Of a DNA stretch of 64,000 nucleotides, positions 3,833 to 41,485 are shown piece after piece (the first letter of the stretch is position 1; each line of letters opens with the position of its first letter). Made by a program: the position numbers and the translations under genes. The notes beneath the pieces were generated by a model. That model was not told where the DNA came from. It made no database searches and was given only the letters and a program-made list of their open reading frames with translations. The stretch is from Pseudomonas sp. 7SR1 (GTDB lineage Bacteria > Pseudomonadota > Gammaproteobacteria > Pseudomonadales > Pseudomonadaceae), in assembly GCF_900156465.1 (NCBI RefSeq), contig NZ_LT707064.1, positions 4,293,001-4,357,000 of the forward strand, given 5' to 3'.

Positions 3833-4510
3833 TCAGCGAGTCGGCTGCATCGCATTGACGAACAGCACGTTGTTCTCCAGGTGAATGTGCTGCATCAGGT
3901 CGTCCCGCAGCTCCACGAGCCCGCGGTACAGGGCGCGCCAGGTATTGCAGGCATCGGCTGGCGGGGTGATCTGGTCGGTGAGGTCCAGCATGATTTCCAG
4001 GGCTTCGCCGTGCTGGTCGTGTTCGTAGCGCAGCACCTGGATCGGCGCCGAGGCCCGATCACCGAGTCCGCCTTGCAGCATCGGGAACAGCACCTGTTCC
4101 TCCTTGAGCATGTGGCCTTCGAGTTCCTGATACAGGTCCTGCAGGTGGTCGGCCAGGCCGTTGGGGCACGTGGCGCGGGCGCCATGCACCTGTTCCACAC
4201 GGCGAGCCAGGCGGATCAGTTCCGGCAACTGTTCGCGGTGGCGGGCATGATAGCGTTCCAGGATGTGGGCGATCAGGCGCTCCTGGGGTTCGTCGCGCCA
4301 ATCATGGCCCGGCTCCCCGGCGGCCTGCAGCGTGCTGAGGGCGTCGGCGATCAGGAGCGGGTTCAGGCCCTTGACCAGGGCCGCTTCGCGCAAGGTCTTC
4401 TGTCCGCCGCAGCAGAAGTCGAGGTTGTAATGGTGAAAGGTGCGGGTGGCACCGGGAATGTCACAGGCCAGTTGGCCAAGGCTTCGTTCCAGCAGGTCGA
4501 GGTTCATCAT
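3833..4510 (-). CDS. ytfE: YtfE/RIC/ScdA di-iron protein, repair of iron centres
   Basis: The start at 4510 (tandem ATGs preceded by AAGGA) gives 225 residues, close to E. coli YtfE (220). The N-terminal ScdA_N domain contains the hallmark NLDFCCGG, and the C-terminal hemerythrin-like domain supplies histidines and glutamates for the di-iron site (ILERYHARHREQLPEL, GHMLKEEQVLFP, YEHDQHGEALE, MQHIHLENNVLF). The protein repairs nitrosatively or oxidatively damaged iron-sulphur centres, or handles NO. It is divergent from norR. A near-consensus sigma-54 promoter and three NorR-type sites lie in the gap, so it is a direct NorR target. Confidence 0.93.
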   Translation of the reverse strand: MMNLDLLERSLGQLACDIPGATRTFHHYNLDFCCGGQKTLREAALVKGLNPLLIADALSTLQAAGEPGHDWRDEPQERLIAHILERYHARHREQLPELIRLARRVEQVHGARATCPNGLADHLQDLYQELEGHMLKEEQVLFPMLQGGLGDRASAPIQVLRYEHDQHGEALEIMLDLTDQITPPADACNTWRALYRGLVELRDDLMQHIHLENNVLFVNAMQPTR

Positions 4511-12540: not shown

Positions 12541-12846
12541 GGCGTACCTCCGCGTACCGCCATGGTAGGGCCGGTAGCCTCTTCGGCCTATGCCTCGGCA
12601 GGCCTACCTCCGAAGAGGGAGACATCCTCCCGGTACCCATATCGGGTGTGTTGCCGTCATCGCCGACAGGCCCGCTTGCTTGCCCCGATCCGTCCCGCCC
12701 GGGATTTTCCGGGATCGAAAAAACGACATGAAGCTTTCATGACAAAAGTTCGGTAGCACATCGCCATTCCCGTCATGCCTGTGTGACGTGTTCGAGAGGG
12801 CCTTCGAGGCCTTTCGGAGCCGGGGCGCGAAGCCGGGAGCGAGGCG
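12541..12846. promoter_or_regulatory. Divergent intergenic region (dnr2 / pdt-like cluster) with two Pho-box-like sequences
   Basis: No gene is seen in these 306 bases. Two imperfect PhoB-type direct repeats (7 + 4 + 7) occur: ATGAAGC-TTTC-ATGACAA at 12728-12745 (minus orientation) and CCGTCAT-GCCT-GTGTGAC at 12770-12787 (plus). Each matches about 10 of 14 CTGTCAT-repeat positions. The P. aeruginosa pdt locus is phosphate-controlled, which makes these worth noting. The match quality alone is modest. Confidence 0.35.
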
Positions 12847-13458
12847 ATGGGAACTATGGAACGTTATTCGAAAGTGGGCATGCAGGAGCTCGACCAGCGG
12901 CTGTCGAAAATCGTCGAGGCGGCGCGCAAGCAACCGGTCTCGGTGTATCGCTATGGCGCGCCGTGGGTCTGGATCGTTTCCCAGGATGACTGGCAGGGCG
13001 CACTCAAGGAAGTGTCCAGCTACATCCCGCAGGGCCATTCGCTGGTCCTGCTGCGACCACAGATCGACGATCTGCTGGACGAGCATCGTGACGTACTGCA
13101 AGGCCTCAACGCCGATGCCGGGATGCGGATCGCACCCCAGACCGCCATGCACATTCTCTTGCTGCAACTGCTCTATTCGGTGCCCAGCGAGCGGCAACTC
13201 TACGAGCAACTCAATTACAACCTGCTGTTCCGCTGGTTCGTCGGCCTGGACCTGAACCAGAAGGTCTGGAACTTCAACGTCTTGAGCAAGGACCTCGCCA
13301 CGCTGCTGGACGATGCGCGAGCGGTGCGGCTCATCCAGAAAATCATCGGTGAAGTGTTCTGTGGCGCCTTGCTGCAAATGCCGGAGTTCTCCTTGAACTT
13401 CGCGTTGCTGCACACCTGGCTGGCCCGGCACGCCACGACATCGACAGCCAGCAATTGA
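12847..13458 (+). CDS. phdA: PhdA-like protein: Phd/YefM-like N-terminus fused to an IS5-type transposase N-terminal-like domain
   Basis: The protein has 203 residues. Residues about 4-55 (MERYSKVGMQELDQRL...QPVSVYRYG...VWIVSQDDW) resemble the Phd/YefM antitoxin fold that neutralises toxins and binds DNA. Residues about 100-170 (LLLQLLYSVPSERQLYEQL, FRWFVGLDLN, WNFNVLSKDLATLL) match the DUF772 N-terminal helical part of IS5-family transposases. No catalytic DDE part, inverted repeat or toxin gene is present. P. aeruginosa PhdA (PA0691), at the same place in the pdt locus, is linked to biofilm prophage-mediated lysis control; this is recalled. It overlaps the in-frame TTG of the next gene and probably starts the operon. 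Confidence 0.8.
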   Translation: MGTMERYSKVGMQELDQRLSKIVEAARKQPVSVYRYGAPWVWIVSQDDWQGALKEVSSYIPQGHSLVLLRPQIDDLLDEHRDVLQGLNADAGMRIAPQTAMHILLLQLLYSVPSERQLYEQLNYNLLFRWFVGLDLNQKVWNFNVLSKDLATLLDDARAVRLIQKIIGEVFCGALLQMPEFSLNFALLHTWLARHATTSTASN

Positions 13459-13484
13459 GCGGTACTTTGAATTCAGGGGGTGGT

Positions 13485-15089
13485 GTGGAGCATTTCTTCA
13501 AGTCACGGCCGGCGCTGTGGGGCTGGCTGTTGCTGGCCGTCGGCGGGCCATCGGCCTTCGCTGCGCAGGAAGGATCCCAGGCTGAGGCGACGCCGGCCCG
13601 CCTGGTGGACGTGAACGAGTATTTCGTGCGCGGCAACACAGTGCTCGATGCCCGGTCCATCGAGGAAGCGGTGTACCCGTTTCTCGGTCCGCAAAAGACC
13701 TTGAGCGATATCGAAGGCGCCCGGGAGGCCCTGCAGAAGGTGTATCAGGCCCGCGGCTATCAGTCGGTGTTCGTCGAACTGCCGGAGCAGAAAGTGGAAG
13801 ACGGCATCGTCTACCTGCAAGTCAGCGAGACCAAGGTCGGCCGGGTGCGGGTGGTGGGGGCCAGGCACTACTCCCCGGTGGAAATCCGCGAAGACGTCCC
13901 GGCTCTCAAGGAAGGTGAAGTGCCGGATTTCGCCAGGGTCCAGGCACAGCTGGCGCAGTTGAACAAGACCCCGGGGCGCCAGGTGATGCCCCTGGTCCGC
14001 GAAGGCCAGCGGCCCGGCACCATGGATGTGGATCTGCAGGTGGAGGACCAGGATCCCTGGCAGGCCAGCCTTGGCCTGAACAACGACTACAGCGCCGACA
14101 CCGAAAAACTGCGGACAGTCGCCAGCCTGGGCTACAACAACCTCTGGCAGCTGGGCCACAGCGTTTCGCTGACTTTCTTCACCGCGCCCCAGGACACCGA
14201 CAACGCCAAGGTCTGGTCGGGGTCCTACACCGCGCCGTTGGACGAGCGCTGGAGCGTGCAGTTCTCCGGCTACCAATCCGACAGCAACGTGGCCACCGTC
14301 GGCGGCAGCAACGTGCTGGGCAAGGGGCATTCCTACGGGGTCTCGGCGATCTACAGCCTGCCGTCCAGCGCGGCCTGGGCCAATACCTTTTCCATCGCAG
14401 TGGATTTCAAGGATTTCGACGAGGAGTTGAGCCTGGGGGGCGCCAGCGACAAGGCACCGCTCAAATACGCGCCATTCACCTTCGCCTACAACGGGCTTCG
14501 CTACACCGAAAGCAGCCAGTTGGGTCTTGGCCTGAGCCTGGTGGCGGGCACACGCAGCCTGCTGGGCTACGGCAGTTCCGACGAAGACTTCGATTACAAG
14601 CGCTATCGAGCCAGTCCCAGCTTCGCGGTGCTCAAGGGCGACGGCAACTACACCTTCACCTTCGCCGGCGATTGGCAGAGCGCCTCCAAGGCCGCTTTCC
14701 AGCTGGCCTCCGGGCCGCTGGTTTCCAACGAGCAGTTCTCCGCCGGAGGCGCCACGTCGGTACGCGGTTACCTGGCAGCCGAGCGCACCGGGGATGACGG
14801 CTACCTGCTGTCCCAGGAGTTGCGTACCCCGTCCATGGCGAAGTTCCTCGGCAGCTATGTCCAGGAATGGCGCTTCTACGCCTTCGCCGAGGGGGCGCAG
14901 TTGTACCTGCGCGACGAACTGCCCGACCAGGAGGCCGACTACAGCCTGGCCAGCGTCGGCCTGGGCACCCGGGCGAGCTTGAGCAAATGGCTGTCCGGCA
15001 GCCTCGACTGGGGCTTTGCGCTGCTCGACGGACCGAACACCACGAAACAGGAATCACGCCTGCACTTCAACCTGCAAGCGACGTTTTGA
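13485..15089 (+). CDS. pdtB: TpsB-type outer-membrane transporter (ShlB/FhaC/HecB, Omp85 superfamily), PdtB-like
   Basis: I prefer the GTG at 13485, preceded by AGGGGG, because it opens a clean signal peptide (about residues 1-27, ending PSAFAA). A TTG at 13455 is also in frame. The result is 534 residues. Two POTRA domains follow: about 35-115 with YFVRGNTVLDARSIEEAV, and about 116-190 with GRVRVVGARHYSPVEI. The rest is a 16-strand ShlB-type barrel starting near DPWQASLGLNNDYS. The superfamily VRGY motif is present in GGATSVRGYLAAER. Such proteins secrete a large TpsA exoprotein; none is found next to it. Confidence 0.88.
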   Translation: MEHFFKSRPALWGWLLLAVGGPSAFAAQEGSQAEATPARLVDVNEYFVRGNTVLDARSIEEAVYPFLGPQKTLSDIEGAREALQKVYQARGYQSVFVELPEQKVEDGIVYLQVSETKVGRVRVVGARHYSPVEIREDVPALKEGEVPDFARVQAQLAQLNKTPGRQVMPLVREGQRPGTMDVDLQVEDQDPWQASLGLNNDYSADTEKLRTVASLGYNNLWQLGHSVSLTFFTAPQDTDNAKVWSGSYTAPLDERWSVQFSGYQSDSNVATVGGSNVLGKGHSYGVSAIYSLPSSAAWANTFSIAVDFKDFDEELSLGGASDKAPLKYAPFTFAYNGLRYTESSQLGLGLSLVAGTRSLLGYGSSDEDFDYKRYRASPSFAVLKGDGNYTFTFAGDWQSASKAAFQLASGPLVSNEQFSAGGATSVRGYLAAERTGDDGYLLSQELRTPSMAKFLGSYVQEWRFYAFAEGAQLYLRDELPDQEADYSLASVGLGTRASLSKWLSGSLDWGFALLDGPNTTKQESRLHFNLQATF

Positions 15090-15100
15090 ACCCAGGAGTC

Positions 15101-16912
15101 ATGTCCATGCAACGCATACTGTTATCCCTGCTGATCTGCCTGGGGCTGGTGCTTCCGGCGACGGCCAACGCCTGGTGGCAGGACGATTGGCACTACCGCA
15201 AACAGATTTCGGTGGACACCACGCCCCAGGGCGCGGCCATCGCCCAGGCCCTGGGGCGCACCGCGCTGCTGGTGCGGCTGCACACCGGCAATTTCACCTT
15301 CGACGGCGTCAAGGAAGACGGTTCGGACCTGCGCTTCGTCAGTGCCGACGACAAGACCGTGCTCAACCACCAGATCGAGAGCTTCGACCCGTTGATGGGC
15401 ATGGCGCTGATCTGGGTCGATGTGCCGAGCGTGGAGGGCGGCCAGCGCCAGGACCTGTGGATGTACTACGGCAACCAGAAGGCAGCGGCCACCGGCAGCG
15501 GCCAGTTGACCTTCGACCCGGACTACACCGCGCTGTATCACTTCGACGGCGCCACCGGCGTGCCGCCCCGGGACACCACGGCCTATGGCAACAATGCCCA
15601 GGGCGCGGTGGGTACCAGCATCGATGGCGTGGTCGGCCGGGCGCTGCAATTCAACGGCCAGCCGCTGCTGTTGCCGGCCAGCCCGTCACTGCAACACAAC
15701 GCTGGCGCGGCGTTCACCTTCAGCACCTGGTTGCGCCAGGACCAGGCCAGCGGCGAACAGGTGGTCCTGGCCCGGCGCGAAGCGGCTGCCAACCTCCTGA
15801 TCGGGGTGAACCAAGGGGTACCGTTCGTGGCGGTCGATGGCCTGCGCGCTGTCTCCACCCAGCCACTGAACCCAGGGCAGTGGCAGCACCTGGCAGTGAC
15901 CGCGTCCGGGGATCGGATCGTGCTGTACGTCAACGGCCGTGAGACCGCGAGCCTGGCGGCGCCGATGCCGGTGTTCAATTCGCCCATCGCCCTGGGGGCC
16001 GATGTTGCCGCCGGTGCCCTGGCGCCTTTGAGCGGCGCCATGGATGAGGTCCGCCTGTCCAAGGTCGCCCGTGCGGCACCCTTGCTGCTGGCCGATGCCA
16101 ATGCCCAGGGCGCCGAGTCTAAGCTGGTGGCCTATGGCGTGGATGAGGAGCAATCCGGCTTCGGTTTCGGCAGCCTGGGCTTTTTGCTCAACGCCGTGCC
16201 CCTGGACGCCTGGGTGATCATCGGGGTGCTGGTGCTGATGATGTTCCAGTCGTGGATCATCATGATCCGCAAGAACCGCATGGTCAGTCGCCTCAGCGCG
16301 GCCAACACGGCCTTTCGCGAGCAGTTCGCCCGGGTTGGCACGCGCCTGGAGATGTTCGCCGATGACCAGGAGCTCGCCCAGCGCCTGCAACATTCCTCCC
16401 TGTGGCGCCTGTACCTGGTGGCGGTGAAGGAAATCCGCACCCGCCGCGAACAGGGCGCCGATACCTCGTCGGTGTCGGCGGCCACCATCGAAGCGATCCG
16501 CTGTTCCATGGACGGCGTGCGTACCCGCGAGAACCAGGCGCTGGGTTCGAAACTCTCGACCCTGTCCAACGCCATCGCCGGCGGCCCCTACATCGGCCTG
16601 CTCGGCACCGTGCTGGGGATCATGGTGGTGTTCCTCGGCACGGCCATGGCCGGTGATGTGAATATCAATGCCATCGCCCCGGGCATGGCCGCGGCACTGC
16701 TTGCCACCGCCATGGGCCTGTTCGTCGCGATCCCCGCGCTGTTTGGCTACAACCGCCTGATCACCCGCAATAAAGAAGTCAGTGCCGACATGCGGGTGTT
16801 CGTCGATGAATTCATCACGCGCCTGGCGGAGATGCACGGGGAAGGGCAGTCCGGCGAAGCGGCCCATCGCCGGGATCACCACCACCCAAACCAAACGTCC
16901 GTACCGGCCTGA
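15101..16912 (+). CDS. exbB2: DUF2341-LamG-MotA/TolQ/ExbB fusion protein (ExbB2-like proton channel)
   Basis: The ATG at 15101 with AGGAG gives 603 residues. A signal peptide (about 1-24, ends TANA) leads to a DUF2341 domain (about 25-135, starting WWQDDWHYRKQI) and a concanavalin-like LamG domain (about 145-330, with FTFSTWLRQ and WQHLAVTASGDRIVLYVNGR). The first membrane helix (about 368-388) and an ExbB/TolQ channel domain (about 490-555, with PYIGLLGTVLGIMVVFLG and a second helix pair) complete it. So a periplasmic adhesin-like head is fused to the proton channel that energises TonB. ExbD and TonB-like genes follow at once. Confidence 0.88.
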   Translation: MSMQRILLSLLICLGLVLPATANAWWQDDWHYRKQISVDTTPQGAAIAQALGRTALLVRLHTGNFTFDGVKEDGSDLRFVSADDKTVLNHQIESFDPLMGMALIWVDVPSVEGGQRQDLWMYYGNQKAAATGSGQLTFDPDYTALYHFDGATGVPPRDTTAYGNNAQGAVGTSIDGVVGRALQFNGQPLLLPASPSLQHNAGAAFTFSTWLRQDQASGEQVVLARREAAANLLIGVNQGVPFVAVDGLRAVSTQPLNPGQWQHLAVTASGDRIVLYVNGRETASLAAPMPVFNSPIALGADVAAGALAPLSGAMDEVRLSKVARAAPLLLADANAQGAESKLVAYGVDEEQSGFGFGSLGFLLNAVPLDAWVIIGVLVLMMFQSWIIMIRKNRMVSRLSAANTAFREQFARVGTRLEMFADDQELAQRLQHSSLWRLYLVAVKEIRTRREQGADTSSVSAATIEAIRCSMDGVRTRENQALGSKLSTLSNAIAGGPYIGLLGTVLGIMVVFLGTAMAGDVNINAIAPGMAAALLATAMGLFVAIPALFGYNRLITRNKEVSADMRVFVDEFITRLAEMHGEGQSGEAAHRRDHHHPNQTSVPA

Positions 16913-16922
16913 GGGAATCGCG

Positions 16923-17348
16923 ATGGCTAGCGTAAATGCTTCGCACGATGACGACGATGACGCCGCGGTGGACAGCATCAACATCACGCCCCTGGTGGAC
17001 GTGCTCATGGTGGTGCTGGTGATGTTCATCCTCACGGCCACGGCCCAGGTGTCGGGCATCCAGATCAACCTGCCCAAGGCCAGTGCCTCGGTGTCTCTGT
17101 CGGAAGCCAAGACCAAGGCGATCTCGGTGAACGATGGCGGCCAGGTGTTCCTCGATGCCTACCCGGTGACCCTGGCGGAACTGGAGGAACGCCTGCGCAT
17201 CGAGAAGGCCCAGAGCCCCGATTTTCCGATCATCGTGCGTGGTGACGCCACAGTGCAGTACCAGAAGGTCATCGAGGTGCTGGATCTGTTGCGGCGCCTG
17301 GAACTGTCCCAGGTCGGTCTGGTGACCGGCAAACCGAGCCAGGGCTGA
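16923..17348 (+). CDS. exbD2: ExbD/TolR family biopolymer transport protein
   Basis: A 141-residue protein with a short acidic cytoplasmic N-terminus (HDDDDDAAVDSINITPLVDVL). A single membrane helix (about 24-43) carries the conserved proton-path aspartate in PLVDVLMV. A periplasmic domain follows, ending in a region like PIIVRGDATVQYQKVIEVLDL, typical of ExbD. It pairs with the ExbB-like domain of the preceding fusion, 10 bases upstream, and with the TonB-like protein two bases downstream. Confidence 0.93.
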   Translation: MASVNASHDDDDDAAVDSINITPLVDVLMVVLVMFILTATAQVSGIQINLPKASASVSLSEAKTKAISVNDGGQVFLDAYPVTLAELEERLRIEKAQSPDFPIIVRGDATVQYQKVIEVLDLLRRLELSQVGLVTGKPSQG

Positions 17349-17350
17349 CC

Positions 17351-18058
17351 ATGACCGCCAGACTCCCCATCGATCCGCCCCCGGTGAAGACCTCGCCCTG
17401 GCGCCTGCTCAAGTGGGCGGCGGGCCTGGCGCTGGGCGCCCTGGCGGCCTGGCTGCTGTGGCAGTGGGCCAACGACATGAGCGGCGTGCGGCGCGAGGCG
17501 CCGAAGGTCCCGACCATCATTGCGCTGCCGCCCCCACCTCCACCCCCACCGCCGGAGAAGCCCAAGGAACCGGAGTCACAGGTGGAGGAAAAGGTGGTGG
17601 AGCCCGAGCCCACCCCGGAGCCGGAGGAGGTCAAGCCTGAAGAGCAGGCCCCGCCTTCGCCGGTGGACGACCTGGCGAACCCGATGCAGATGGACGGCGA
17701 GGCCCAGTCCGGCAACGACGCTTTCAATATCGGCGCCGGCAAGGGAGGTGGCATGGCTGGTGCTGGAGGCGGGCGCCTGGGCAACGGTACCTACAGCCAG
17801 TTCCTGGCCTTCACCTTCCAGCGCCTGCTGCGGGAGAACCCGCAGCTGCGCAGCCTGGCGTTTTCCCTACAGGCTGACGTCTGGCTGAGTGCCGTCGGCG
17901 AGATCACACGGGTCGAGCTGGTCAAGTCCAGCGGCAATCGGCAAGTGGATGAACAAGTGATTTCGGCCCTGCGCGCCTCACCTCATCTGAGCGAGCGGCC
18001 ACCGGCTTCCCTGACATTGCCCGTGCGCCTGTCCTTGCAAGGGCGGCGTCCGGGTTAA
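17351..18058 (+). CDS. TonB-like energy transducer
   Basis: 235 residues. A membrane anchor (about 17-36, LALGALAAWLLWQW) is followed by a proline-rich rigid linker. Its run of eight or more prolines (PPPPPPPPPE) and PEPTPEPEE lie at about 58-110. A glycine-rich hinge precedes a C-terminal TonB-type domain (about 145-232, with AVGEITRVELVKSSGNRQVDEQV). It should transfer energy from the ExbB-ExbD channel to an outer-membrane partner. The neighbouring outer-membrane proteins are the TpsB and the putative porin, neither a classical TonB-dependent receptor with a plug, so the partner is unclear. Confidence 0.85.
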   Translation: MTARLPIDPPPVKTSPWRLLKWAAGLALGALAAWLLWQWANDMSGVRREAPKVPTIIALPPPPPPPPPEKPKEPESQVEEKVVEPEPTPEPEEVKPEEQAPPSPVDDLANPMQMDGEAQSGNDAFNIGAGKGGGMAGAGGGRLGNGTYSQFLAFTFQRLLRENPQLRSLAFSLQADVWLSAVGEITRVELVKSSGNRQVDEQVISALRASPHLSERPPASLTLPVRLSLQGRRPG

Positions 18059-18097
18059 CCGAATGCTTGAAAGTTTGCCAACAGGAGTTGTGTGCAG

Positions 18098-19789
18098 ATG
18101 ATTTCCAATGTGAATCGATTGTCGTGGAGGGTCGGCCTGGTAGTCCTGGGTCTGGCCGGGCAGGCGGTCGCCGCTGCGGCGCCCTCGGAAAACGCCACGA
18201 TCAATCTGATCCGCCTGCTGGTGCAGCAGGGGGTACTCAAGCAGGACCAGGCCGATGGGCTGATCGCCCAGGCCGAGCGCGAAGCCGTGCAGGCCCGCCA
18301 GGCCGCCACGGCGGTGGCTGCGGCACCGGTGGGGGCGCCCGGGGACGTACGGGTGCAATACGTGCCGAACATCGTTCGCGAGCAGATCCGCGATCAGGTG
18401 AAGGCTGAAGTCATGGCCACCGCCAAGCAGGAGAACTGGGCCCAGCCCAACACGTTCCCGGACTGGGTGTCACGCATCAGCTTCGATGGCGACATTCGCC
18501 TGCGTGACGAGTCGCGCTACTACTCGGGCAACAACAGCAACGAGATCGTCGACTTCGCCCGGCTCAATGACAAGGGACCGTACGACGTCAATCCCAACAG
18601 CAGCTCCAGCCTGCCGCCCTTGCTCAACACCCGCGAGGATCGGGAAAACCTGTTCCGCCTGCGGGCGCGCCTGGGGATGAAGGCGGTGATTGCGCCGCAA
18701 TGGACCGCCGGCATCCGCATCGGTACCGGTTCGGACAATAACCCGGTGTCCACCACCCAGACCCTGGGCGGTGGCTTCGGCAAGAAAGACATCTGGCTCG
18801 ATCAGGGCTACCTGACCTGGAAGGCATCGGATGAACTGACCCTGACCGGGGGGCGGATTGCGAATCCGTTCTTCTCCACCGACATGCTGTATTCCGGCGA
18901 TCTGAATTTCGATGGGGTGGCGGCGATCTTCAATCGCAAGCTCAATCGGGACTGGGGCCTGTTCGGCACCGTCGGCGCGTTCCCGGTGGAATACACCAAT
19001 GACACCAGCACCAGCAATGGCACGGACAAGGAGGAGAGCGACAACAAGTGGCTCTACGGTGCGCAACTGGGGGCGAACTGGGCGATCAACGACAGCAACC
19101 GGGTCAAGGGTGCGCTGGCCTATTACCGCTTCGACGACATCGAGGGCAAGCGCTCCTCGCCGTGCCAGCCGTGGGCCGGTGACCCCGGGTGCGACAGCGA
19201 CGGTTCTCGCGTGGCTTTCATGCAGAAGGGCAATACGGTGTTCCTGCTGCGCGACATCACGCCCAACCCGCTCAACCCGTCCACCACGCCCCAGCCGCAA
19301 TACGTCGGCCTGGCGTCGGAGTTCAACCTGCTGGACCTGAACCTGGTCTGGGATGCCGACCTGCCCGAGGACTTGAAACTGCGCAGCCAGGCCAACTACG
19401 TACACAACCTGGGCTACGACGAAGGCGAGATGCGCAAGCGTTCCGAAGGCCAGTTCGCCAACAACCTGGACGAGAGTGGCGAACTGGAAAGCGGCGCCAA
19501 CGCCTGGATGCTCCAGTTCACCCTGGGCAGGGCCCTGGAGCTAAAGCGCGAGGGCGACTGGAACCTGTTCGCCGGTTACAAGTACATCCAGCCGGATGCC
19601 TTGCCGGACGGTTTCAACGACTCGTCGTTCCATTTGGGCGGCACCAACGCCAAAGGCTACTTCCTCGGTGGCAACTACGGCCTGGCCAGCAACGTCTTCG
19701 CCACCGGCCGTTGGTTGAGTGCCGAGGCGGTGTATGGCGCGCCCTACGATATCGACGTTCTGCAGCTTGAAATCAACACGCGCTTCTAA
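18098..19789 (+). CDS. Putative outer-membrane porin (Gram-negative putative-porin family)
   Basis: The ATG at 18098 gives 563 residues; a GTG at 18092, closer to AGGAG, is an alternative. A signal peptide (about 1-25, ending AVAAA) precedes a helical segment (INLIRLLVQQGVLKQDQADGLIAQAEREAVQARQ, cited only as a region), reminiscent of the periplasmic coiled coil of large porins. The rest alternates aromatic and polar residues, as in barrel strands (ISFDGDIRLRDESRYY, WTAGIRIGTGSDN, YLTWKASDELTLTGGRI), and ends with the C-terminal aromatic LQLEINTRF. Substrate unknown. It lies 39 bases after the TonB-like gene on the same strand. Confidence 0.8.
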   Translation: MISNVNRLSWRVGLVVLGLAGQAVAAAAPSENATINLIRLLVQQGVLKQDQADGLIAQAEREAVQARQAATAVAAAPVGAPGDVRVQYVPNIVREQIRDQVKAEVMATAKQENWAQPNTFPDWVSRISFDGDIRLRDESRYYSGNNSNEIVDFARLNDKGPYDVNPNSSSSLPPLLNTREDRENLFRLRARLGMKAVIAPQWTAGIRIGTGSDNNPVSTTQTLGGGFGKKDIWLDQGYLTWKASDELTLTGGRIANPFFSTDMLYSGDLNFDGVAAIFNRKLNRDWGLFGTVGAFPVEYTNDTSTSNGTDKEESDNKWLYGAQLGANWAINDSNRVKGALAYYRFDDIEGKRSSPCQPWAGDPGCDSDGSRVAFMQKGNTVFLLRDITPNPLNPSTTPQPQYVGLASEFNLLDLNLVWDADLPEDLKLRSQANYVHNLGYDEGEMRKRSEGQFANNLDESGELESGANAWMLQFTLGRALELKREGDWNLFAGYKYIQPDALPDGFNDSSFHLGGTNAKGYFLGGNYGLASNVFATGRWLSAEAVYGAPYDIDVLQLEINTRF

Positions 19790-19804
19790 GCGCAGGGAGG
19801 CTTC

Positions 19805-20452
19805 ATGAAAAGGCGAGCCATGGGTTCATGCCCAGCCGCGTTGCTGGTGCTGGGCCTGCTATTGAACAGCGGTGCCCACGGCGAGGGCCTGGAGGAACGG
19901 CTGCGGGCGCAACTGCGCAGCACCACGGCCCAGTTGCAAGCCCTGCAAAGCGAGCAGGCCCAGGCCAGTGCGGCCCGACAGGCGGCCGAAGGCCAGGCCA
20001 GGGAGGCCCAGGCGCAGGTCAAGCAATTGACCGCGCAACTGAACAAGGCCCAGGCCTTGAACGAACAACTGGCCGGGCGCCAGGAAAGCCTGCAGAGCCA
20101 GGCCCAGGCCCAGGTGGCCGCCCGCAATGAGCAGATCGGCAAATTCAAGAAAGCCTACGACGAGCTGCTGACCCTGGCCCGTGGCAAGGAGGCCGAGCGC
20201 GCCCGCCTGGAGGCCCGTCTGGCCGAACGTGACACACAAGTGCAGCAATGTTCGGTCAAGAATCAGCAGATGTACGAAGTCGCCCAGTCGTTGCTGCATG
20301 CCTATGAAACCATCGACGTCACCGATGTCATGAAGATTCGCCAGCCGTTCGCGGCCAAGGCCCGGGTACGTTTCGAAGAGCTGGCCCAAGGGTTTGGCGA
20401 CGATCTCTACAAGAACCGTTTCGACGCCCCCCAGGCCTCGATTACTCATTGA
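19805..20452 (+). CDS. Secreted coiled-coil protein of the pdt-like cluster
   Basis: 215 residues: a signal peptide (about 1-26, ending AHG) and then a long Ala/Gln/Glu-rich heptad region (about 28-150, with LRSTTAQLQALQSEQAQA and LNKAQALNEQLAG). The C-terminal tail contains a single Cys (VQQCSVKNQQMYEV) and VRFEELAQGFGDDLYKNRF. This build suits a periplasmic spacer or chaperone joining inner- and outer-membrane parts. I recognise no named family. Its start is 15 bases after the porin stop, with AGGGAGG upstream. Confidence 0.8.
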   Translation: MKRRAMGSCPAALLVLGLLLNSGAHGEGLEERLRAQLRSTTAQLQALQSEQAQASAARQAAEGQAREAQAQVKQLTAQLNKAQALNEQLAGRQESLQSQAQAQVAARNEQIGKFKKAYDELLTLARGKEAERARLEARLAERDTQVQQCSVKNQQMYEVAQSLLHAYETIDVTDVMKIRQPFAAKARVRFEELAQGFGDDLYKNRFDAPQASITH

Positions 20453-20471
20453 AAGCAAGGATGGACCGAGC

Positions 20472-20942
20472 ATGACTTCATTGATTGAACACGTTTCCCC
20501 GACATCGCTGACCGAGCTGTTGCAAAGCGCCGGTTACCGGGTCAACGAAACGGAGCAGAACGGCATCGTGCAGCTGCTCAGCGCCAGCCAGGGTATCGGC
20601 TTCGCGGTACGCTTCGGCAATCCGACGCCCACTGCGGGGCAGTACCTGGACTTCACGTTCAGCTGCGCCTTGCGGGTCCAGGGCGAGCTGCCGGCCGGGC
20701 TGGCCGAGCTGTGGAATGCCTCGCGGCGCTTTGCCCGGCTGTCGGTGCAGGGCGAGTTCCTGGTGATGGAGATGGACGTGGTGGTCGCCGCCGGCGTCAG
20801 CGGCGATCACCTGCGCAGCCACCTGGAACTGTGGGACCGTCTGTTGCAGGAGTTCATCGTCTACCTGCGCGAGTACAGCCAGAACGCGGCGCGCCTGCAG
20901 GCTTCGGCCGAGGCATCGGTGGAGGAGGCCAGCGCATCGTGA
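20472..20942 (+). CDS. YbjN-domain-like (secretion-chaperone-fold) protein
   Basis: 156 residues without signal peptide or membrane helix. The pattern LTELLQSAGYRVNETEQNGIVQLLSASQGIGFAVRF, noted here only by its ends, followed by beta-strands (LDFTFSCALRV, FLVMEMDVVV) and a closing amphipathic helix (LELWDRLLQEFIVYLREY) looks like the YbjN / type III chaperone-like fold. A cytoplasmic chaperone for an exported client of the cluster is possible, as inference. It overlaps the next gene by four bases (GTGA). Confidence 0.72.
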   Translation: MTSLIEHVSPTSLTELLQSAGYRVNETEQNGIVQLLSASQGIGFAVRFGNPTPTAGQYLDFTFSCALRVQGELPAGLAELWNASRRFARLSVQGEFLVMEMDVVVAAGVSGDHLRSHLELWDRLLQEFIVYLREYSQNAARLQASAEASVEEASAS

Positions 20943-21883
20943 GAAAAACGATCTTCGCGGTTCTTTTTGCAGCGGTGGCCCTGGTTGCGGTGGCCGTGGT
21001 GCAAGGCCTGCGACCGGGCAACGATCCGGTGGCGGCGGTGCAGGACGCCAGCGTCATGCCCGCCGACGGGCCGAGCCTGGCGCGCTTGGGCAATCAGCAG
21101 GTCAGCCCCGACGAGCTCAAGGCGCTGCTGGCCGCCCTGACACCGCAGGTCCGCGAGCAGATGCGCGGTAACCGGGCCGCGCTGGAGAGTTGGATTCGGG
21201 CGCGGCTGGCGGAAAAGGCCGTGCTGGAGCAGGCCGATGCCCAGGGTTGGCGACATCGTCCGGACGTGGAGCGCCAGACCCGGGCGGCCACCGAGCAGAT
21301 CGTGTTTCGCGATTACCTGCAATCGGTCAGCCAGGTGCCGGCCGGCTATCCCAGTGAAGAAGAGTTGAAACAGGCCTACGATGCGGGCAAAGCCAACTGG
21401 ACGATGCCGGCGCTGTATCGGGTGAGCCAGATCTTCCTGGCGGCGACCGAGCCGCAGACCTTCGAAGCGGTGCGTCGGCAAGCCATCGAACTGAGCAGAA
21501 AGGCCCAGGCGTCGCCGGCGGAGTTTGCCGCGCTGGCGAACCGCTTTTCCCAGGATCGTGCCACTGCCGAGCGAGGCGGGGACAGCGGTATGCAGCCCTT
21601 GCAGCAACTGCTGCCGCAAGTGCGCGAGGCGGTGGCGCGGTTGAAGGTGGGGGCGGTTTCGGATCCGGTGCAGAGCGCGGCGGGGTATCACGTCATCAAA
21701 CTGACCGAACAGCAGCCGGCCAGGGAAGCCACCCTGGACGAAGTTCGCGGGCAACTGACCCAGGCGCTGCGCGCGCAACGCCAGGAACAGATCGCCAAGG
21801 CCTACCTGGATGGCATGCTCGATACCGCGACCCTGAGCATCGACGGCGCGCAATTGAGCAAGGTGCTGGAGGAGGTGCGTTAA
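20939..21883 (+). CDS. Membrane-anchored parvulin-type peptidyl-prolyl isomerase (PpiC/SurA-like)
   Basis: The GTG at 20939 overlaps the preceding stop and gives 314 residues. An N-terminal membrane anchor (about 5-22) leads to a SurA_N-like helical region (about 45-130) and a parvulin rotamase domain (about 158-262, with YRVSQIFLAA, FSQDRATAERGGDSGMQ and SAAGYHVIKL). It probably folds outer-membrane or secreted proteins of this cluster in the periplasm. It is the last gene of the co-directional set. A short hairpin element lies downstream. Confidence 0.88.
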   Translation: MRKTIFAVLFAAVALVAVAVVQGLRPGNDPVAAVQDASVMPADGPSLARLGNQQVSPDELKALLAALTPQVREQMRGNRAALESWIRARLAEKAVLEQADAQGWRHRPDVERQTRAATEQIVFRDYLQSVSQVPAGYPSEEELKQAYDAGKANWTMPALYRVSQIFLAATEPQTFEAVRRQAIELSRKAQASPAEFAALANRFSQDRATAERGGDSGMQPLQQLLPQVREAVARLKVGAVSDPVQSAAGYHVIKLTEQQPAREATLDEVRGQLTQALRAQRQEQIAKAYLDGMLDTATLSIDGAQLSKVLEEVR

Positions 21884-21929
21884 CCTCGGCCCACCATGGG
21901 TGTGAGCATCTTTGTGATGTGAACACTTT

Positions 21930-21959
21930 TGTGGCGAGGGATCGATCCCCTCGCCACAG
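21930..21959. repeat. Perfect short palindrome, GCGAGGGGAT family repeat
   Basis: TGTGGCGAGGG and CCCCTCGCCACA flank a six-base ATCGAT centre, giving a compact version of the repeat at 11708, 30642 and 35375. It lies between the PpiC gene and the LysR gene and may terminate the upstream operon. Confidence 0.8.
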
Positions 21960-22026
21960 GGCGCTGCGCTGTATCGGGAACGCCAGCGCAGTTCAACGTA
22001 TTCGTAGAACCGACAGGGAGTCACCC

Positions 22027-23007
22027 ATGACCTTCATCGAGCCCGCAGGACCGCAGGCCATCACCGCTTATCGCGCACCGCTGCGCGCGCCCGAACCCTG
22101 GCTGGCCCTGGCCGGCGACATCGACCCCCAGGTGGCCCAGTGCTTCCTGGTGAGCGCCCGTTGTGGCTGTTTCATGCAGGCGGCTCGCAGCCTCAATGTC
22201 AAGGCGATCTGGCTGCGCAAGCAACTGATGCAGCTCGAGGCACGCCTGCAGCGCTCCCTGTTCAACTTCCAGGGCAGCGCCCTGACCCTCAGCCGGGAGG
22301 GGCGCCAATTGCAGTCCCGGCTGAAGGCCCTGGCCGATGAAAGCTCGCCACCCTTGCTGGACCAGCCATTGGTGCGCCTGGCGGTGGCCGAGTCGATCCT
22401 GCATGACATCCTGGGGCGTGACCTGATTGCGTTGTTGCGCCGCAATGCCAGTGCGCGGTTGCAAATCATCACCCTGGACAGTGAACTGGCGCTGCAAGCC
22501 GTCAGTGCCGACCTGGTGTTGTGGCTGAGCGACCCACTCGGTTCAGTGCCCGGGCCGAGCTTTCCCACGCTGCCGCCCGAGCATCTGGCGCGGCTGGACT
22601 ACCTGCCTCACATCGCCAAGCGATATTCGCGGCCGGCAACCCGGCCGGGCTGCCTGGGCGACCTGAACGACTACATGCTGGTGCAGTGGCAGGCGGACCG
22701 GCAGCCGGACAGCTTCGCCCCGTGGAACACTCTCCTGGAACAGCGTCGGGCCGGCGTGGTGCAGGTGCAGTCCTATGAGCTGATGCTGGAAATGATTCGC
22801 TGCAGTGCCTGCATCGGCCTGTTGCCGCAGTATATGAGCCACTTCGACCGTGGCCTGGTGGCCTTGCCGGGGTTGTTCGACGTGCCGATGCAGCGCCACC
22901 TGTGGATGGCCGTCGGCACCCAGGCCCGGCAGACCCCGGAAGTGCGCATGCTGGTGGAGATGATTCAACACGCGCTGTACGAGCGCAGGGATTGGTTCCA
23001 GGCGTGA
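22027..23007 (+). CDS. LysR-type transcriptional regulator (atypical N-terminus)
   Basis: 326 residues with an unusually long lead of about 35 residues before the winged HTH (about 38-95: CFLVSARCGCFMQAARSLNV ... LRKQLMQLEARLQRSLF ... LTLSREGRQL). The effector-binding domain follows, with VRLAVAESILHDILG as its first strand. Sequence drift in the HTH (KAIWLRKQLMQLE instead of QPAVSRQIKKLE) is marked. It lies directly downstream of the pdt-like cluster on the same strand, as a LysR gene does in P. aeruginosa (recalled), and may control it. Confidence 0.82.
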   Translation: MTFIEPAGPQAITAYRAPLRAPEPWLALAGDIDPQVAQCFLVSARCGCFMQAARSLNVKAIWLRKQLMQLEARLQRSLFNFQGSALTLSREGRQLQSRLKALADESSPPLLDQPLVRLAVAESILHDILGRDLIALLRRNASARLQIITLDSELALQAVSADLVLWLSDPLGSVPGPSFPTLPPEHLARLDYLPHIAKRYSRPATRPGCLGDLNDYMLVQWQADRQPDSFAPWNTLLEQRRAGVVQVQSYELMLEMIRCSACIGLLPQYMSHFDRGLVALPGLFDVPMQRHLWMAVGTQARQTPEVRMLVEMIQHALYERRDWFQA

Positions 23008-26157: not shown

Positions 26158-27489
26158 ATGCCCACGCGCCCAATGGTTGATCACTCCATGCAATCCTCCG
26201 TTTCTCGTAACTCCCGCCGCTGGCTGTTGAGCCTGTTCATCGTCTTGGTCGTCGCGGTGGTGGCCTGGAAATTCTGGCCCGCCGGCACGGATCCCAAGCA
26301 AGGGGCAGGGCAGAAAGCCGCACAGGGGCACACAGGGCGTTCGGGCAGCATGCGACCTGGCTTCGGTGGGGCCACGGGGCCGGTGCCGGTCCGGGTGGCG
26401 CCGGCAGTCACCGGGGACTTTGCGCTGTACTACAAGGCGCTGGGCACTGTCACGGCCCTCAATACCATCAACGTGCGCAGCCGGGTGAGCGGTGAGCTGG
26501 TCAAGATCGCCTTCGAAGAAGGGCAGATGGTCAAGGCCGGGGACCTGCTGGCCGAAATCGATCCGCGTCCCTACCAGAACGCCTTGCTCCAGGCTGAAGG
26601 CACGCTGTTGCAGAACCAGGCACAACTGAAGAACGCCCAGGTCGATCTTGAGCGCTATCGCGGGCTGTATGCCGAGGACAGCATCGCCAAGCAGACCCTG
26701 GATACCGCCGCCGCGCTGGTGGGCCAGTACCAGGGCACCGTCAAGACCAATCAGGCGGCGGTCAATGATGCCAAGCTCAACCTCGAATTCACCAGGATCC
26801 GTGCACCGATTTCCGGACGGGTCGGCCTGCGGCAGCTGGATATCGGCAACCTGGTGGCGGCCAACGACACCACGGCCCTGGCGGTCATTACCCAGACCCA
26901 ACCCATCAGCGTTGTCTTCACCCTGCCGGAAAGCAATCTGGACACCGTGCTCGCCCGTTACCGCAGCGGCGCGAAACTGCCTGTCGAGGCCTGGGACCGC
27001 GGCGATGTGAAACTCCAGGCCAGCGGTGTGCTGCAAAGCCTGGACAACCAGATCGACACCACCACCGGAACCCTGAAATTCAAGGCCCGCTACGATAACC
27101 GCGACCAGTCGCTGTTCCCCAACCAGTTCGTCAACGTCCGCCTGCTGGCCGACACCCTCAAGGGCGTCGTCCTGGCACCCACCGCCGCGATCCAGTTCGG
27201 CACCAATGGCACCTTCGTCTATGCCCTGGATGGCGACAGGAAGGTCACCATCAAAACGTTGAAGATCGGCCCCAGCGACGGCAGCAACACCGTGGTCACC
27301 GAAGGCCTGGCGGCCGGCGAGCGTGTCGTGCTCGAAGGCACCGACCGCTTGAAGGAGGGCAGCGAAGTGGAGGTGGTCAATGACAGCCAGGACGTGCCCA
27401 CCACGCCGACCGAGCACCTGCAGGGCAAGACCGCGGCGGGTCCGAGTGAACCGGCCGTGGTCGACAAGGCGAAAAAGGGCGGCGCATGA
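26158..27489 (+). CDS. muxA: RND efflux periplasmic adaptor MuxA (MdtA-like)
   Basis: 443 residues from the ATG at 26158; ATGs at 26173 and 26188 are equally possible because no clear ribosome-binding site is seen. An inner-membrane anchor (about 21-41) precedes the biotinyl-lipoyl-like and alpha-hairpin domains ([40 protein letters not shown]) and beta-barrel region ([18 protein letters not shown]). It is the membrane-fusion part of the MuxABC-OpmB tripartite pump. The stop overlaps the muxB start (ATGA). Confidence 0.92.
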
Positions 27490-30400
27490 ATCTCTCGCGG
27501 CTGTTCATCCTTCGCCCGGTGGCGACCACCCTGAGCATGCTGGCCATTGTCCTGGCCGGCCTGATCGCCTATCGGCTGCTGCCGGTGTCGGCATTGCCCC
27601 AGGTCGACTATCCCACCATCCGGGTGATGACCTTGTACCCGGGCGCGAGCCCCGATGTGATGACCAGTGCGGTGACCGCTCCCCTGGAGCGGCAGTTCGG
27701 CCAGATGCCGGGCCTGACCCAGATGGCCTCCACCAGCTCCGGTGGGGCTTCGGTGATTACCCTGCGGTTCAATCTCGAGACCAACATGGATGTCGCCGAA
27801 CAGCAGGTGCAGGCGGCGATCAACGCGGCGACCAACCTGCTGCCCGACGATCTGCCGGCGCCCCCGGTGTACAACAAGGTCAACCCCGCCGATACCCCGG
27901 TGCTGACCCTGGCGATCACCTCCAGGACCATGCTGCTGCCCAAGCTCAATGACCTGGTGGATACGCGCATGGCGCAGAAGATCGCCCAGATCAGCGGGGT
28001 CGGTATGGTGACCATCGCCGGCGGCCAGCGCCAGGCCGTGCGGATCAAGGTCAACCCCCAGGCCCTGGCGGCCAACGGCCTGAACCTGGCGGATGTGCGC
28101 ACACTGATCGGGGCCTCCAACGTCAACCAGCCCAAGGGCAACTTCGACGGCCCGACCCGGGTCTCGATGCTTGACGCCAACGACCAGCTGACCTCGCCCA
28201 AGGACTATGCCGAACTGATCCTGGCCTATGCCAATGGTGCGCCATTGCGGCTCAAGGACGTGGCACAGATCGTCGACGGCGCCGAGAACGAACGCCTTGC
28301 CGCCTGGGCCAACGAGAACCAGGCCGTGCTGCTGAACATCCAGCGCCAGCCGGGGGCCAACGTGATCGAGGTGGTGGACCGGATCAAGGCCCTGTTGCCA
28401 AGTATCACCGACAACCTGCCGGCCGGCCTGGACGTCACGGTGCTGACCGATCGTACCCAGACCATCCGTGCCTCGGTCAAGGATGTGCAACATGAACTGC
28501 TGATCGCCATCGCCCTGGTGGTCATGGTGACGTTCCTGTTCCTGCGTCGTTTCAGCGCCACTATCATTCCCTCGGTGGCCGTGCCGCTGTCGCTGATCGG
28601 GACCTTCGGGGTGATGTACCTGGCCGGCTTTTCCATCAACAACCTGACCCTGATGGCCCTGACCATCGCCACCGGTTTCGTGGTGGACGACGCCATCGTC
28701 ATGCTGGAGAACGTCGCCCGTTACATCGAGGAGGGCGACAGCCCATTGCAGGCGGCGCTCAAGGGGGCGAGGCAGATTGGCTTCACCCTGGTGTCCCTGA
28801 CGCTGTCGCTGATCGCCGTGCTGATCCCCCTGCTGTTCATGGCGGACGTGGTCGGACGGTTGTTTCGCGAATTCGCCATCACCCTGGCGGTGGCGATCCT
28901 GATTTCCCTGGTGGTGTCCCTGACGCTGACGCCGATGATGTGCGCGCGCTTGCTCAAGCGTGAGCCGAAGGAAGAGGAACAGGGCCGGTTCTACCGCGCC
29001 AGTGGCGCCTGGATCGACTGGCTGATCGCCGCCTATGGCCGCAAGCTGCAATGGGTGCTCAAGCACCAGCCGCTGACCCTGCTGGTGGCGGTGGGCAGCC
29101 TCGTGCTCACGGTGGTGTTGTACCTGGCGGTGCCCAAGGGCTTTTTCCCGGTGCAGGACACGGGTGTGATCCAGGGCATTTCCGAAGCGCCCCAGTCGAT
29201 TTCCTTCGCCGCCATGAGCGAGCGCCAGCAGCAACTGGCCAAGGTGATCCTGGCCGACCCGGCGGTGCAGAGCCTGTCTTCCTATATCGGCGTGGACGGT
29301 GACAACGCCACGCTCAACAGCGGGCGTCTGCTGATCAACCTCAAGCCCCACAAGGAGCGTGATGACAGCGCTACGCAGGTCATTGCCCGCTTGCAGCCGC
29401 AACTGGACCGCCTGGTGGGGATCCGCCTGTTCATGCAGCCGGTACAGGACCTGACCATCGAGGACCGGGTCAGTCGGACCCAGTACCAGTTCAGCCTGTC
29501 GTCGCCGGATGCCGAGTTGCTCACCCTCTGGAGCGCCCGCCTCACCGAGGCGCTGGCCCGCCAGCCGGAACTGACCGACGTCGCCAGCGACCTGCAGGAC
29601 AAGGGCCTGCAGGTCTATCTGGTGATCGACCGTGACGCCGCCTCGCGCCTGGGCGTGTCGGTGGCGAACATCACCGATGCGCTGTACGACGCTTTCGGCC
29701 AGCGGCAGATTTCCACCATCTACACCCAGGCCAGCCAGTATCGCGTGGTGCTGCAGGCCCAGGCCGGGGAGCGGATCGGGCCCAAGGCCCTGGACCAGAT
29801 CTACGTCAAGACCACCGAAGGCGGGCAGGTGCGGTTGTCGAGCCTGGCCCGGGTCGAAGAGCGTCAGGCGCAGCTGGCGATTGCCCATATCGGCCAGTTC
29901 CCGGCGGTGATGATGTCGTTCAACCTGGCTCCGGACGTGGCCCTGGGCCATGCGGTGGAGGTGATCGAAAAGGTCCAGCGGGAGATCGGCATGCCGGTGG
30001 GCGTGCAGACCCAGTTCCAGGGTGCCGCCCAGGCATTCCAGGCATCGCTGTCGAGCACCTTGCTGCTGATCCTGGCGGCGGTGGTGACCATGTACATCGT
30101 GCTGGGCGTGCTGTACGAGAGCTACATCCACCCGATCACGATCCTCTCCACCTTGCCCTCGGCGGCCATTGGCGCCTTGCTGGCGTTGATCCTAAGCGGC
30201 AACGACCTGGGCATGATCGCGATCATCGGCATCATCCTGCTGATCGGTATCGTCAAGAAGAACGCGATCATGATGATCGACTTCGCCCTCGACGCGGAGC
30301 GCAACCAGGGCATGGACCCGCAGACGGCCATCTACCAGGCCGCGTTGCTGCGCTTCCGGCCGATCCTGATGACCACCCTGGCGGCCCTGTTCGGCGCAGT

Positions 30401-30581
30401 GCCGCTGATGCTCGCCACCGGCTCCGGCGCGGAATTGCGCCAGCCCCTGGGCCTGGTGATGGTCGGTGGGCTGCTGGTGAGCCAGGTCTTGACGTTGTTC
30501 ACCACGCCAGTGATCTACCTGTATTTCGATCGCCTGGGCCGCCGGTTTGCCAGGCCGGAAGGGAAAGAGGTGCGGGTATGA
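27486..30581 (+). CDS. muxB: RND multidrug transporter subunit MuxB (MdtB-like)
   Basis: 1031 residues, full RND length with 12 membrane helices. It starts [18 protein letters not shown]. Helix 4 carries the proton-relay aspartate pair in [14 protein letters not shown], and the large periplasmic loops contain [16 protein letters not shown]. Unlike most RND pumps, MuxB and MuxC (MdtB and MdtC) act as a heterotrimer. A 199-base gap with a repeat element separates it from muxC, which is unusual for this operon. Confidence 0.94.
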
Positions 30582-30641
30582 CGCTCGGGAGCTTGCGGTT
30601 GGAGCCTGCGCCGGAGAACCTGGGGCAAGCGCGTTTTCTGC

Positions 30642-30725
30642 GGCAAGGCGATTCATCCCCGCTGGACTGCGTAGCGGCCCCTTTTGTGAGCGCTTGGCAC
30701 TCAAGCGGGGATGAGTCCCCTCGCC
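30642..30725. repeat. Inverted repeat inside the mux operon (muxB-muxC gap)
   Basis: Arms GGCAAGGCGATTCATCCCCGC (30642-30662; only the conserved core quoted) and GCGGGGATGAGTCCCCTCGCC (30705-30725) enclose ACTGCGTAGCGG. It belongs to the same family as the elements at 11708, 21930 and 35375 and splits an otherwise tightly packed operon. Confidence 0.82.
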
Positions 30726-30780
30726 ATGAAAGCCCGGACATTTCCTGCATTCCTTCATCTGCAGCCCGGAGCGGCGGTCG

Positions 30781-33700: not shown

Positions 33701-33885
33701 GCGGCGCGGAAGGCTCGGAAATGCGCCAGCCCCTGGGCCTGACGATCATCGGCGGGCTGGTCTTCAGCCAGGTCCTGACCCTCTACACCACACCGGTGGT
33801 TTACCTTTATCTCGACAAGTTGCGCCATCGTTTCAATCGCTGGCGCGGCGTGCGTACCGATGCTGCTCTGGAAACTGCGCTATGA
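30781..33885 (+). CDS. muxC: RND multidrug transporter subunit MuxC (MdtC-like)
   Basis: 1034 residues with the RND layout. It begins MNLSGPFIRRPVATMLLS, has the helix 4 motif GLVVDDAIVVLEN, the second-half [19 protein letters not shown] and the C-terminal MRQPLGLTIIGGLVFSQ. It is the partner subunit of MuxB. Its stop overlaps the opmB start (ATGA), so muxC and opmB are coupled. Confidence 0.94.
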   Translation: MNLSGPFIRRPVATMLLSLAITLLGGVCFGLLPVSPLPQMDFPVIVVQANLPGASPEVMASTVATPLERSFGAIAGVNTMSSRSSQGSTRVILQFDLDRDINGAAREVQAAINASRNLLPSGMRSMPTYKKVNPSQAPIMVLSLTSDVLEKGQLYDLASTILSQSLSQVSGVGEVQIGGSSLPAVRIELEPQLLNQYGVALDDVRSAIADSNVRRPKGSVEDDQRMWQVQANDQLEKAKDYETLIIRYQDGSVLRLKDVAKVTDGVEDRYNSGFFNDDAAVLLVINRQAGANIIETVNEIKAQLPALQAVLPASVKLDLAMDRSPVIKATLHEAEMTLLIAVALVVLVVFLFLGNLRASLIPTLAVPVSLVGTFAVMYLYGFSLNNLSLMALILATGLVVDDAIVVLENISRHIDEGVPPMKAAYLGAREVGFTLLSMNASLVAVFLSILFMGGIVESLFREFSITLAASILVSLLVSLTLTPMLCSRWLKPHVPGQENRLQRASRRLNERMVRGYASSLDWVLRHRRLTLLSLLVTIGVNIALYVVVPKTFMPQQDTGQLIGFVRGDDGLSFSVMQPKMEIFRRAVLKDDAVQSVAGFIGGNNGTNNAFMLVRLKPIKEREISAQKVIERLRKEMPKVPGAQLMLMADQDLQFGGGREQTTSQYSYILQSADLASLREWYPKVVAAFRALPELTAIDARDGGGAQQVTLVVDRDQAKRLGIDMAMVTTVLNNAYSQRQISTIYDSLNQYQVVMEVNPKYAQDPNTLEQVQVITDDGARVPLSTIAHYENSLEDDRVSHEGQFASEGISFDMAESVTVEQGTAAIERAIARLGMPEDVIAKMAGTADAFAATQKGQPLMILGALLAVYLVLGVLYESYIHPLTILSTLPSAGVGALLSIYVLGQEFSLISLLGLFLLIGVVKKNAILMIDLALQLERGGQTPEESIRSACLLRLRPILMTTLAAILGALPLLLGGAEGSEMRQPLGLTIIGGLVFSQVLTLYTTPVVYLYLDKLRHRFNRWRGVRTDAALETAL

Positions 33886-41194: not shown

Positions 41195-41199
41195 CTATT

Positions 41200-41237: not shown

Positions 41238-41284
41238 CTTTATGTGGCAATGCAGTTTTTTGTTTCGAAAGAACATGGGCTACC

Positions 41285-41477: not shown

Positions 41478-41485
41478 TCTAAAAT

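Follow-up and report, generated by a model that had tools for sequence, protein, structure and literature searches.

The closest described relative of the system reported here is the PUMA3/pdt locus of Pseudomonas aeruginosa, which comprises vreAIR, hxc, pdtA, and phdA-pdtB-exbB2-exbD2-tonB4-PA0696-PA0701 (PMC7035377, PMC4971064). The pdtA and hxc genes are described as lying in one locus, and exbB2-exbD2-tonB4 is called an uncharacterized putative TonB system (PMC7035377). The promoter PpdtA is reported to serve pdtA only and PphdA to serve phdA, pdtB, exbB2D2, tonB4, and PA0696-PA0701, and both are reported to require PhoB and sigma-VreI (PMC4971064). Llamas et al. (2009) reported that PUMA3 clusters in several species accompany homologs of two-partner secretion (TPS) proteins, ExbBD, and PA0696 (PMC2729926); the locus association was partly noted already in 2009. 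Here we describe a nine-gene operon of Pseudomonas sp. 7SR1, found in a 64,000 nucleotide stretch (the window, C1:4293001-4357000, where C1 is the single 6,090,201-bp contig of the genome). The operon has the same genes in the same order as its P. aeruginosa counterpart. An earlier note on this DNA had pointed to this likeness, and the published gene set confirms it (PMC7035377, PMC4971064). The two genomes are also alike in having tpsA beside type II secretion genes and in having a vreAIR-like cassette, but the P. aeruginosa genes are in one place, whereas here the regulon is dispersed over three (~4.306, 4.868-4.893, and 5.069 Mb).

Two other kinds of system invite comparison. The FhaB/FhaC and CdiA/CdiB two-partner systems share with this one a TPS-domain exoprotein (TpsA) and a POTRA/Omp85 transporter (TpsB); the TpsB profile of the operon matches CdiB (6wim, 1.3e-26) and FhaC. 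They differ from the system described here, which has a private ExbB/ExbD/TonB set, a Porin_5 protein, and a DUF3739 exoprotein, shows no H1 plug helix in the predicted transporter, and carries an N-terminal extension on TpsA in most sequences examined. In Myxococcus xanthus, secretion of PopC is reported to require Oar together with ExbB/ExbD/TonB (PMC6434023). There, too, ExbB/ExbD/TonB is needed for protein export across the outer membrane, and Oar/PopC is a precedent for TonB-dependent secretion. Oar, however, belongs to the TonB-dependent transporters and has a plug and a TonB box, whereas the outer-membrane candidate here is an Omp85/TpsB protein.

The earlier note held that the operon lacks its exoprotein. 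This is correct for the window, in which a search of the genome's own proteins for TPS domains (E <= 0.01) found none, but it does not hold for the genome. Three TPS-domain proteins are encoded (E <= 0.01), as are three TpsB matches (operon TpsB as query, E <= 0.001). Two TpsA/TpsB pairs are neighbors, and the third TpsA, a 4,143 amino acid protein, stands alone with no adjoining TpsB match, ~560 kb from the operon. We excluded the other two TpsAs as cargo, as each has a TpsB match beside it. Elimination, a common promoter-like element, and co-occurrence across genomes (both below) support the orphan TpsA as the predicted cargo of the operon TpsB. The usual adjacency of tpsA and tpsB is not found here, but adjacency is not strictly required for type Vb systems. 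The TpsBs of the two other pairs (L005 and L006; C1 ~1.044 and ~6.000 Mb) have almost identical N-terminal halves, as if one pair had been duplicated ~4.95 Mb apart.

A 26-bp promoter-like element, TGAANNTTTCATGACAANNGTTCGGT, was first spotted by eye in the sequences that precede phdA and the distant tpsA. Only two sites occur in the 6.09-Mb genome at <=3 mismatches, both exact, and a reversed-pattern control gave 0. Because these two sites themselves supplied the pattern, its weight comes from the absence of other sites and from its recurrence in relatives. It is upstream of the operon in 20/20 Pseudomonas loci (<=2 mismatches), and 13 of 14 Pseudomonas stretches have it ahead of tpsA (<=4 mismatches); in the 14th (L087) the open frame continues to the edge of the stretch. 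In five non-Pseudomonas stretches (L091-L095) no copy was found ahead of tpsA, and three other non-Pseudomonas loci (L060, L067, and L078) have matches only at 5-6 mismatches. We infer that TGAANNTTTCATGACAANNGTTCGGT is the counterpart of the P. aeruginosa pdt promoter element. General sigma-70 promoter and terminator scans gave matches no commoner than in shuffled sequence.

The genome has a vreAIR-like cassette at ~5.069 Mb, assigned by domains and gene order: a 232 amino acid protein with STN and TonB_2 domains (1.3e-7 and 1.2e-4), an extracytoplasmic function sigma factor, and a FecR anti-sigma factor. A 205 amino acid frame with many VAEGGSDRLLERR repeats, which has no Pfam match, adjoins the vreR-like gene on the opposite strand (L196:1822-2439, C1 ~5.068 Mb). 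The neighbors of the orphan tpsA are a PBP_like_2 gene and type II secretion genes E, D, G, and J, and a CHASE4-PAS-GGDEF-EAL gene (L007:2520-5168) adjoins it on the opposite strand. The operon and the distant TpsA almost certainly form one co-regulated system.

The earlier note had allowed that the machine either exports something encoded elsewhere or has lost secretion and become a cargo-less envelope device. The first part fits the distant TpsA. The second is now very improbable, since a TpsA gene behind an identical promoter-like element was found elsewhere at the level of sequence, and the note itself had named a TpsA elsewhere, expressed alike, as counting against its reading. Loss of secretion would account for the lack of a TpsA gene in the window and for the 560 kb separation, but the tpsA frame is open over its 4,143 codons behind a rare element, and no genome in the two samples below has either the fusion or DUF3739 alone.

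We examined co-occurrence in 149 Pseudomonas genomes, with thresholds of E <= 1e-40 for the LamG-ExbB fusion and E <= 1e-5 for DUF3739, and in 398 Pseudomonadota genomes. The fusion and DUF3739 are found in an identical set of 48 of the Pseudomonas genomes (set equality was checked) and an identical set of 14 of the Pseudomonadota genomes, from 11 genera; at the thresholds applied, none of the 149 + 398 genomes has one of them alone. TpsB orthologs (>=71% identity) are in the same 48 Pseudomonas genomes, which affirms the co-occurrence of DUF2341-ExbB with TpsB that the earlier note had proposed to check. Three further, remote TpsB matches (31-32%) occur in G022, in G115, and as a second one in G139. 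TpsB is present in 13 of the 14 Pseudomonadota genomes with the fusion; in the exception, G428, the fusion gene lies at the edge of its contig (L073). TPS domains of any kind are far more widespread (119/149 Pseudomonas genomes, 71 of them without the fusion). Hypergeometric estimates are ~3e-40 and ~4e-26, but these ignore shared ancestry and are overstated. The pairing of a TpsB with a private proton channel and TonB, described in the earlier note as unusual, thus stands and is more general than was claimed. At the level of sequence, the giant DUF3739 exoprotein, a TpsB without a visible plug helix, Porin_5, and a private ExbB/ExbD/TonB are tightly tied.

The arrangement is more than chance: gene order and content of the operon recur in 20/20 Pseudomonas loci fetched, with a LysR gene matched in all 20. 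The one deviation is L046 (from G107), which has no PhdA match but has the remaining operon and the promoter-like element. The position of tpsA is variable among the 48 Pseudomonas genomes: 16 have it immediately ahead of the operon and in the same orientation, 19 have it elsewhere on that contig at a distance of 34 kb to 4.4 Mb, and 13 have it on another contig. G167 and G504 carry tpsA inside the cluster, between tpsB and exbB (tpsB-tpsA-exbB-exbD-tonB-porin_5).

A wider scan of named genomes used profiles made in this analysis and the best 80 of 338 confirmed loci. These 80 span alpha-, beta-, and gammaproteobacteria and eight records whose titles name Verrucomicrobiota, all eight of them metagenome assemblies (L127, L130, L148, L156, L158, L160, L161, and L174). 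They include ExbD (79/80), TonB (75/80), Porin_5 (73/80), the coiled-coil protein (63/80), TpsB (46/80), PpiC (23/80), and YbjN (20/80). TpsA or TpsB is present in 73/80. Among the seven exceptions, L184 and L185 are contigs of <5 kb, L175 has a 3,287-residue frame immediately upstream that went unmatched, and L180 has ExbB, ExbD, and TonB matches with no Porin_5, TpsA, or TpsB; the other three (L145, L152, and L169) are discussed below.

Judged by sequence, the canonical H1 plug helix is apparently missing from the PdtB-type TpsBs. Their signal peptide runs almost straight into POTRA 1, and the intervening segment is of low complexity where long. From signal peptide to strand-1 motif the median is 23 residues (range 12-51) in the 66 of 77 sequences in which the motif was located, with the N-terminal spacing set by a rough signal-peptide rule. 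A comparison of N-termini found no H1-like helix before POTRA 1 in the operon TpsB. The genome's two other TpsBs have a helix-like stretch and a linker at this place, and in CdiB both H1 and linker are reported as visible in crystals (PMC7644211).

The predicted motor retains ion-path residues. ExbB T503 and T536 and ExbD D26 are invariant (14/14 aligned). By alignment with TolQ and motif contexts, their E. coli counterparts are T148, T181, and D25, which are described as ion-path residues (PMC8599685). The LamG part of the fusion matches lectin-like domains of several proteins, and DUF2341-LamG is likely a periplasmic lectin-like part on a proton-channel subunit. DUF2341 has been named as an appendage of unassigned function on ExbB-type subunits (PMC12505986).

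We propose that the operon encodes the transporter and energizer half of a dispersed pdt-type two-partner system coupled to TonB/ExbBD. TpsA would reach the periplasm by Sec and be kept export-ready there, perhaps helped by PpiC and the coiled-coil protein, and it would then be threaded through a TpsB that lacks the usual plug helix. The TonB-like protein would receive proton motive force from the LamG-ExbB/ExbD channel and act on the outer-membrane side (TpsB and/or Porin_5), where it would gate the giant protein's export, drive it, or bring it to completion. TonB may in this way pass proton motive force to the outer-membrane export step. We regard the whole chain as about evenly balanced between right and wrong, and we give its central step, the action of TonB on the export pathway, a similar, even chance. 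More tentatively, and at somewhat less than even probability, this could be a distinct proton motive force-driven two-partner subtype that has spread across Pseudomonadota and Verrucomicrobiota. Its LamG-ExbB/ExbD/TonB motor would act, with Porin_5, on an Omp85 transporter lacking the plug and so move a giant DUF3739 exoprotein. TonB would then act on a member of the POTRA/Omp85 superfamily.

Several observations weigh against powered export. Type V export is described as proceeding without external energy and as working in liposomes (PMC5422565). E. coli ExbB Glu176, mapped through the TolQ Glu, is replaced by Ala531 in 14/14 sequences; this Glu is described as essential, and its loss in another ExbB was read as likely loss of function (PMC8599685). 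P. aeruginosa tpsA, tpsB, tonB, and PA0696 mutants are reported to have wild-type virulence in zebrafish (PMC2729926), and so no phenotype backs the link between TonB and export. Porin_5 tracks the fusion as closely as TpsA does, and TonB may therefore serve Porin_5. Two loci (L145 and L169) have ExbB-ExbD-TonB-Porin_5-coiled-coil without TpsA or TpsB in the DNA covered, and L152 has the same set, also without TpsA or TpsB, with Porin_5 on the other strand. The earlier note's suggestion that a proton channel and TonB are tied to a POTRA/Omp85 protein has gained strong comparative support, but nothing seen here shows energy reaching the transporter.

Mirror-tree distances do not tell TpsB and Porin_5 apart as the target of TonB. 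In the 38 of 80 named loci that have all five families, Spearman correlations are 0.86 for ExbB-ExbD, 0.81 for TpsB-Porin_5, 0.78 for ExbB-Porin_5, 0.77 for TonB-Porin_5, and 0.72 for TonB-TpsB. Partial correlations are 0.31 for TonB-TpsB and 0.26 for TonB-Porin_5, which do not separate the two, and TonB-ExbB gives just 0.05, so that the method missed an expected partner.

Porin_5 is central to the main competing explanation, an uptake machine. TpsB would export TpsA unpowered, the surface TpsA would catch a ligand and pass it to Porin_5, and the TonB complex would power or gate entry through Porin_5, much as HxuA/HxuB work with HxuC. The Haemophilus hxuABC operon is a precedent, with TpsA, TpsB, and a TonB-linked outer-membrane function together (PMC5422565). 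Porin_5 is found at E <= 1.1e-173 in the same 48 Pseudomonas genomes as the fusion (two of these cover only part of the profile), and 51 other genomes of this sample have only a partial match of ~170-210 positions. The three loci that retain the motor, Porin_5, and the coiled-coil protein without TpsA or TpsB also fit uptake, as does the reported phosphate-starvation regulation in P. aeruginosa (PMC4971064), which is consistent with scavenging. HxuC, however, is a TonB-dependent transporter, whereas Porin_5 has no such Pfam match and a sequence search for solved relatives of it found none at E <= 0.1; a TonB target on it is therefore not evident. Uptake also leaves the plug-less TpsB unexplained. 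Co-occurrence, promoters, and mirror-tree distances do not separate uptake from powered export; we consider uptake unlikely, though it is the leading competitor.

The C-terminus of TpsA bears on another possibility, in which TpsB exports TpsA unaided and TonB has a later task: acting on TpsB or on the C-terminal end of TpsA, it would release the exoprotein, anchor it, or process it. In the orphan TpsA, DUF3739 is near the C-terminus and is followed by ~100 further residues, and a similar tail recurs among Pseudomonas TpsAs. The co-occurrence of the fusion with DUF3739 also fits a late step. No universal C-terminal tail was found, however: it is not common to the shorter (~3,290-residue) TpsAs of the tpsB-tpsA-exbB type, and we judge a late-step role for TonB improbable. 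At the other end, most TpsA N-termini examined have a ~100-residue extension between signal peptide and TPS domain; this is not universal either, being absent in L071, L093, and L094.

The coordinates of the operon, the distant tpsA, and the promoter-like element are in Table 1. The nine same-strand genes of the earlier note, at 12847-21883, are confirmed; all are on the + strand, with 4-bp overlaps or 2-39-bp gaps, and eight of them have a Pfam family over the cut-off, the exception being the coiled-coil protein; the Phd match of the first gene is sub-threshold. Among the nine genes and the LysR gene, no Pfam match to a TonB-dependent receptor (plug and barrel) was found. The operon TpsB shares 92% identity with a P. 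thivervalensis entry and ~70-73% with entries from P. aeruginosa. An anti-phage role was considered and rejected, with zero PADLOC matches at E <= 0.001 for six proteins scanned.

Table 1. Features of the operon and its distant partner (positions are those of the window, or of the contig where C1 is given)
Feature	Position	Strand	Basis or remark
Promoter-like element TGAANNTTTCATGACAANNGTTCGGT, 26 bp	12729..12754	+	also upstream of distant tpsA
PhdA-like protein (Phd-like N-terminus, DUF772)	12847..13458	+	Pfam DUF772 2.1e-14; Phd 1.8e-4, below cut-off
PdtB-type TpsB (POTRA_2, ShlB barrel), apparently without H1 plug helix	13455..15089	+	Pfam; profile match CdiB, FhaC
DUF2341-LamG-ExbB fusion (DUF2341, Laminin_G_3, MotA_ExbB)	15101..16912	+	Pfam; alignment; profile matches TolQ/ExbB, LamG-like structures
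ExbD	16923..17348	+	Pfam
TonB-like protein (TonB4 type), proline-rich spacer, TonB_2 C-terminus	17351..18058	+	Pfam TonB_2 3.5e-7; alignment
Porin_5 outer-membrane protein (PA0696 type)	18098..19789	+	Pfam 5e-209
Secreted coiled-coil protein (PA0697 type)	19805..20452	+	sequence; no Pfam family over cut-off
YbjN-family protein (PA0698 type)	20472..20942	+	Pfam
PpiC-type peptidyl-prolyl isomerase (rotamase; PA0699 type)	20939..21883	+	Pfam
LysR regulator (PA0701 type)	22027..23007	+	Pfam; next gene past 143-bp gap
Promoter-like element TGAANNTTTCATGACAANNGTTCGGT upstream of distant tpsA	C1:4880827-4880852	-	exact
Orphan TpsA, 4,143 aa	C1:4868306-4880737	-	TPS domain 153-411, DUF3739 3932-4041

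Elsewhere in the window we noted a few further features. Between the PpiC and LysR genes, at ~21925-21960, a repetitive extragenic palindrome-like inverted repeat, TGTGGCGAGGG...CCCTCGCCACA, was seen by eye; an inverted-repeat search with a 12-bp minimum arm gave none there, the arms being 11 bp. Consecutive open reading frames of 443, 1031, 1034, and 491 amino acids at 26158-35357 match, by size only, an efflux set with two resistance-nodulation-division pumps. G+C falls to 0.54-0.56 at 40001-44000 and 48001-52000, against ~0.64 nearby, with genes for tRNA-Cys (41121) and tRNA-Leu (41391) near; these stretches are possibly acquired DNA.

Among the papers listed by searches of open-licence literature, no title or abstract start proposes a powered two-partner system, and the term DUF3739 was not found in that literature. 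By what means very large proteins pass through type V exporters without an outer-membrane energy source is a standing question. In the genomes sampled, this exporter class is never without a private proton channel and TonB, which suggests that some type V exporters may be powered. If true, this would assign a function, of which we saw none described, to DUF2341-LamG-ExbB fusions, DUF3739, and Porin_5.

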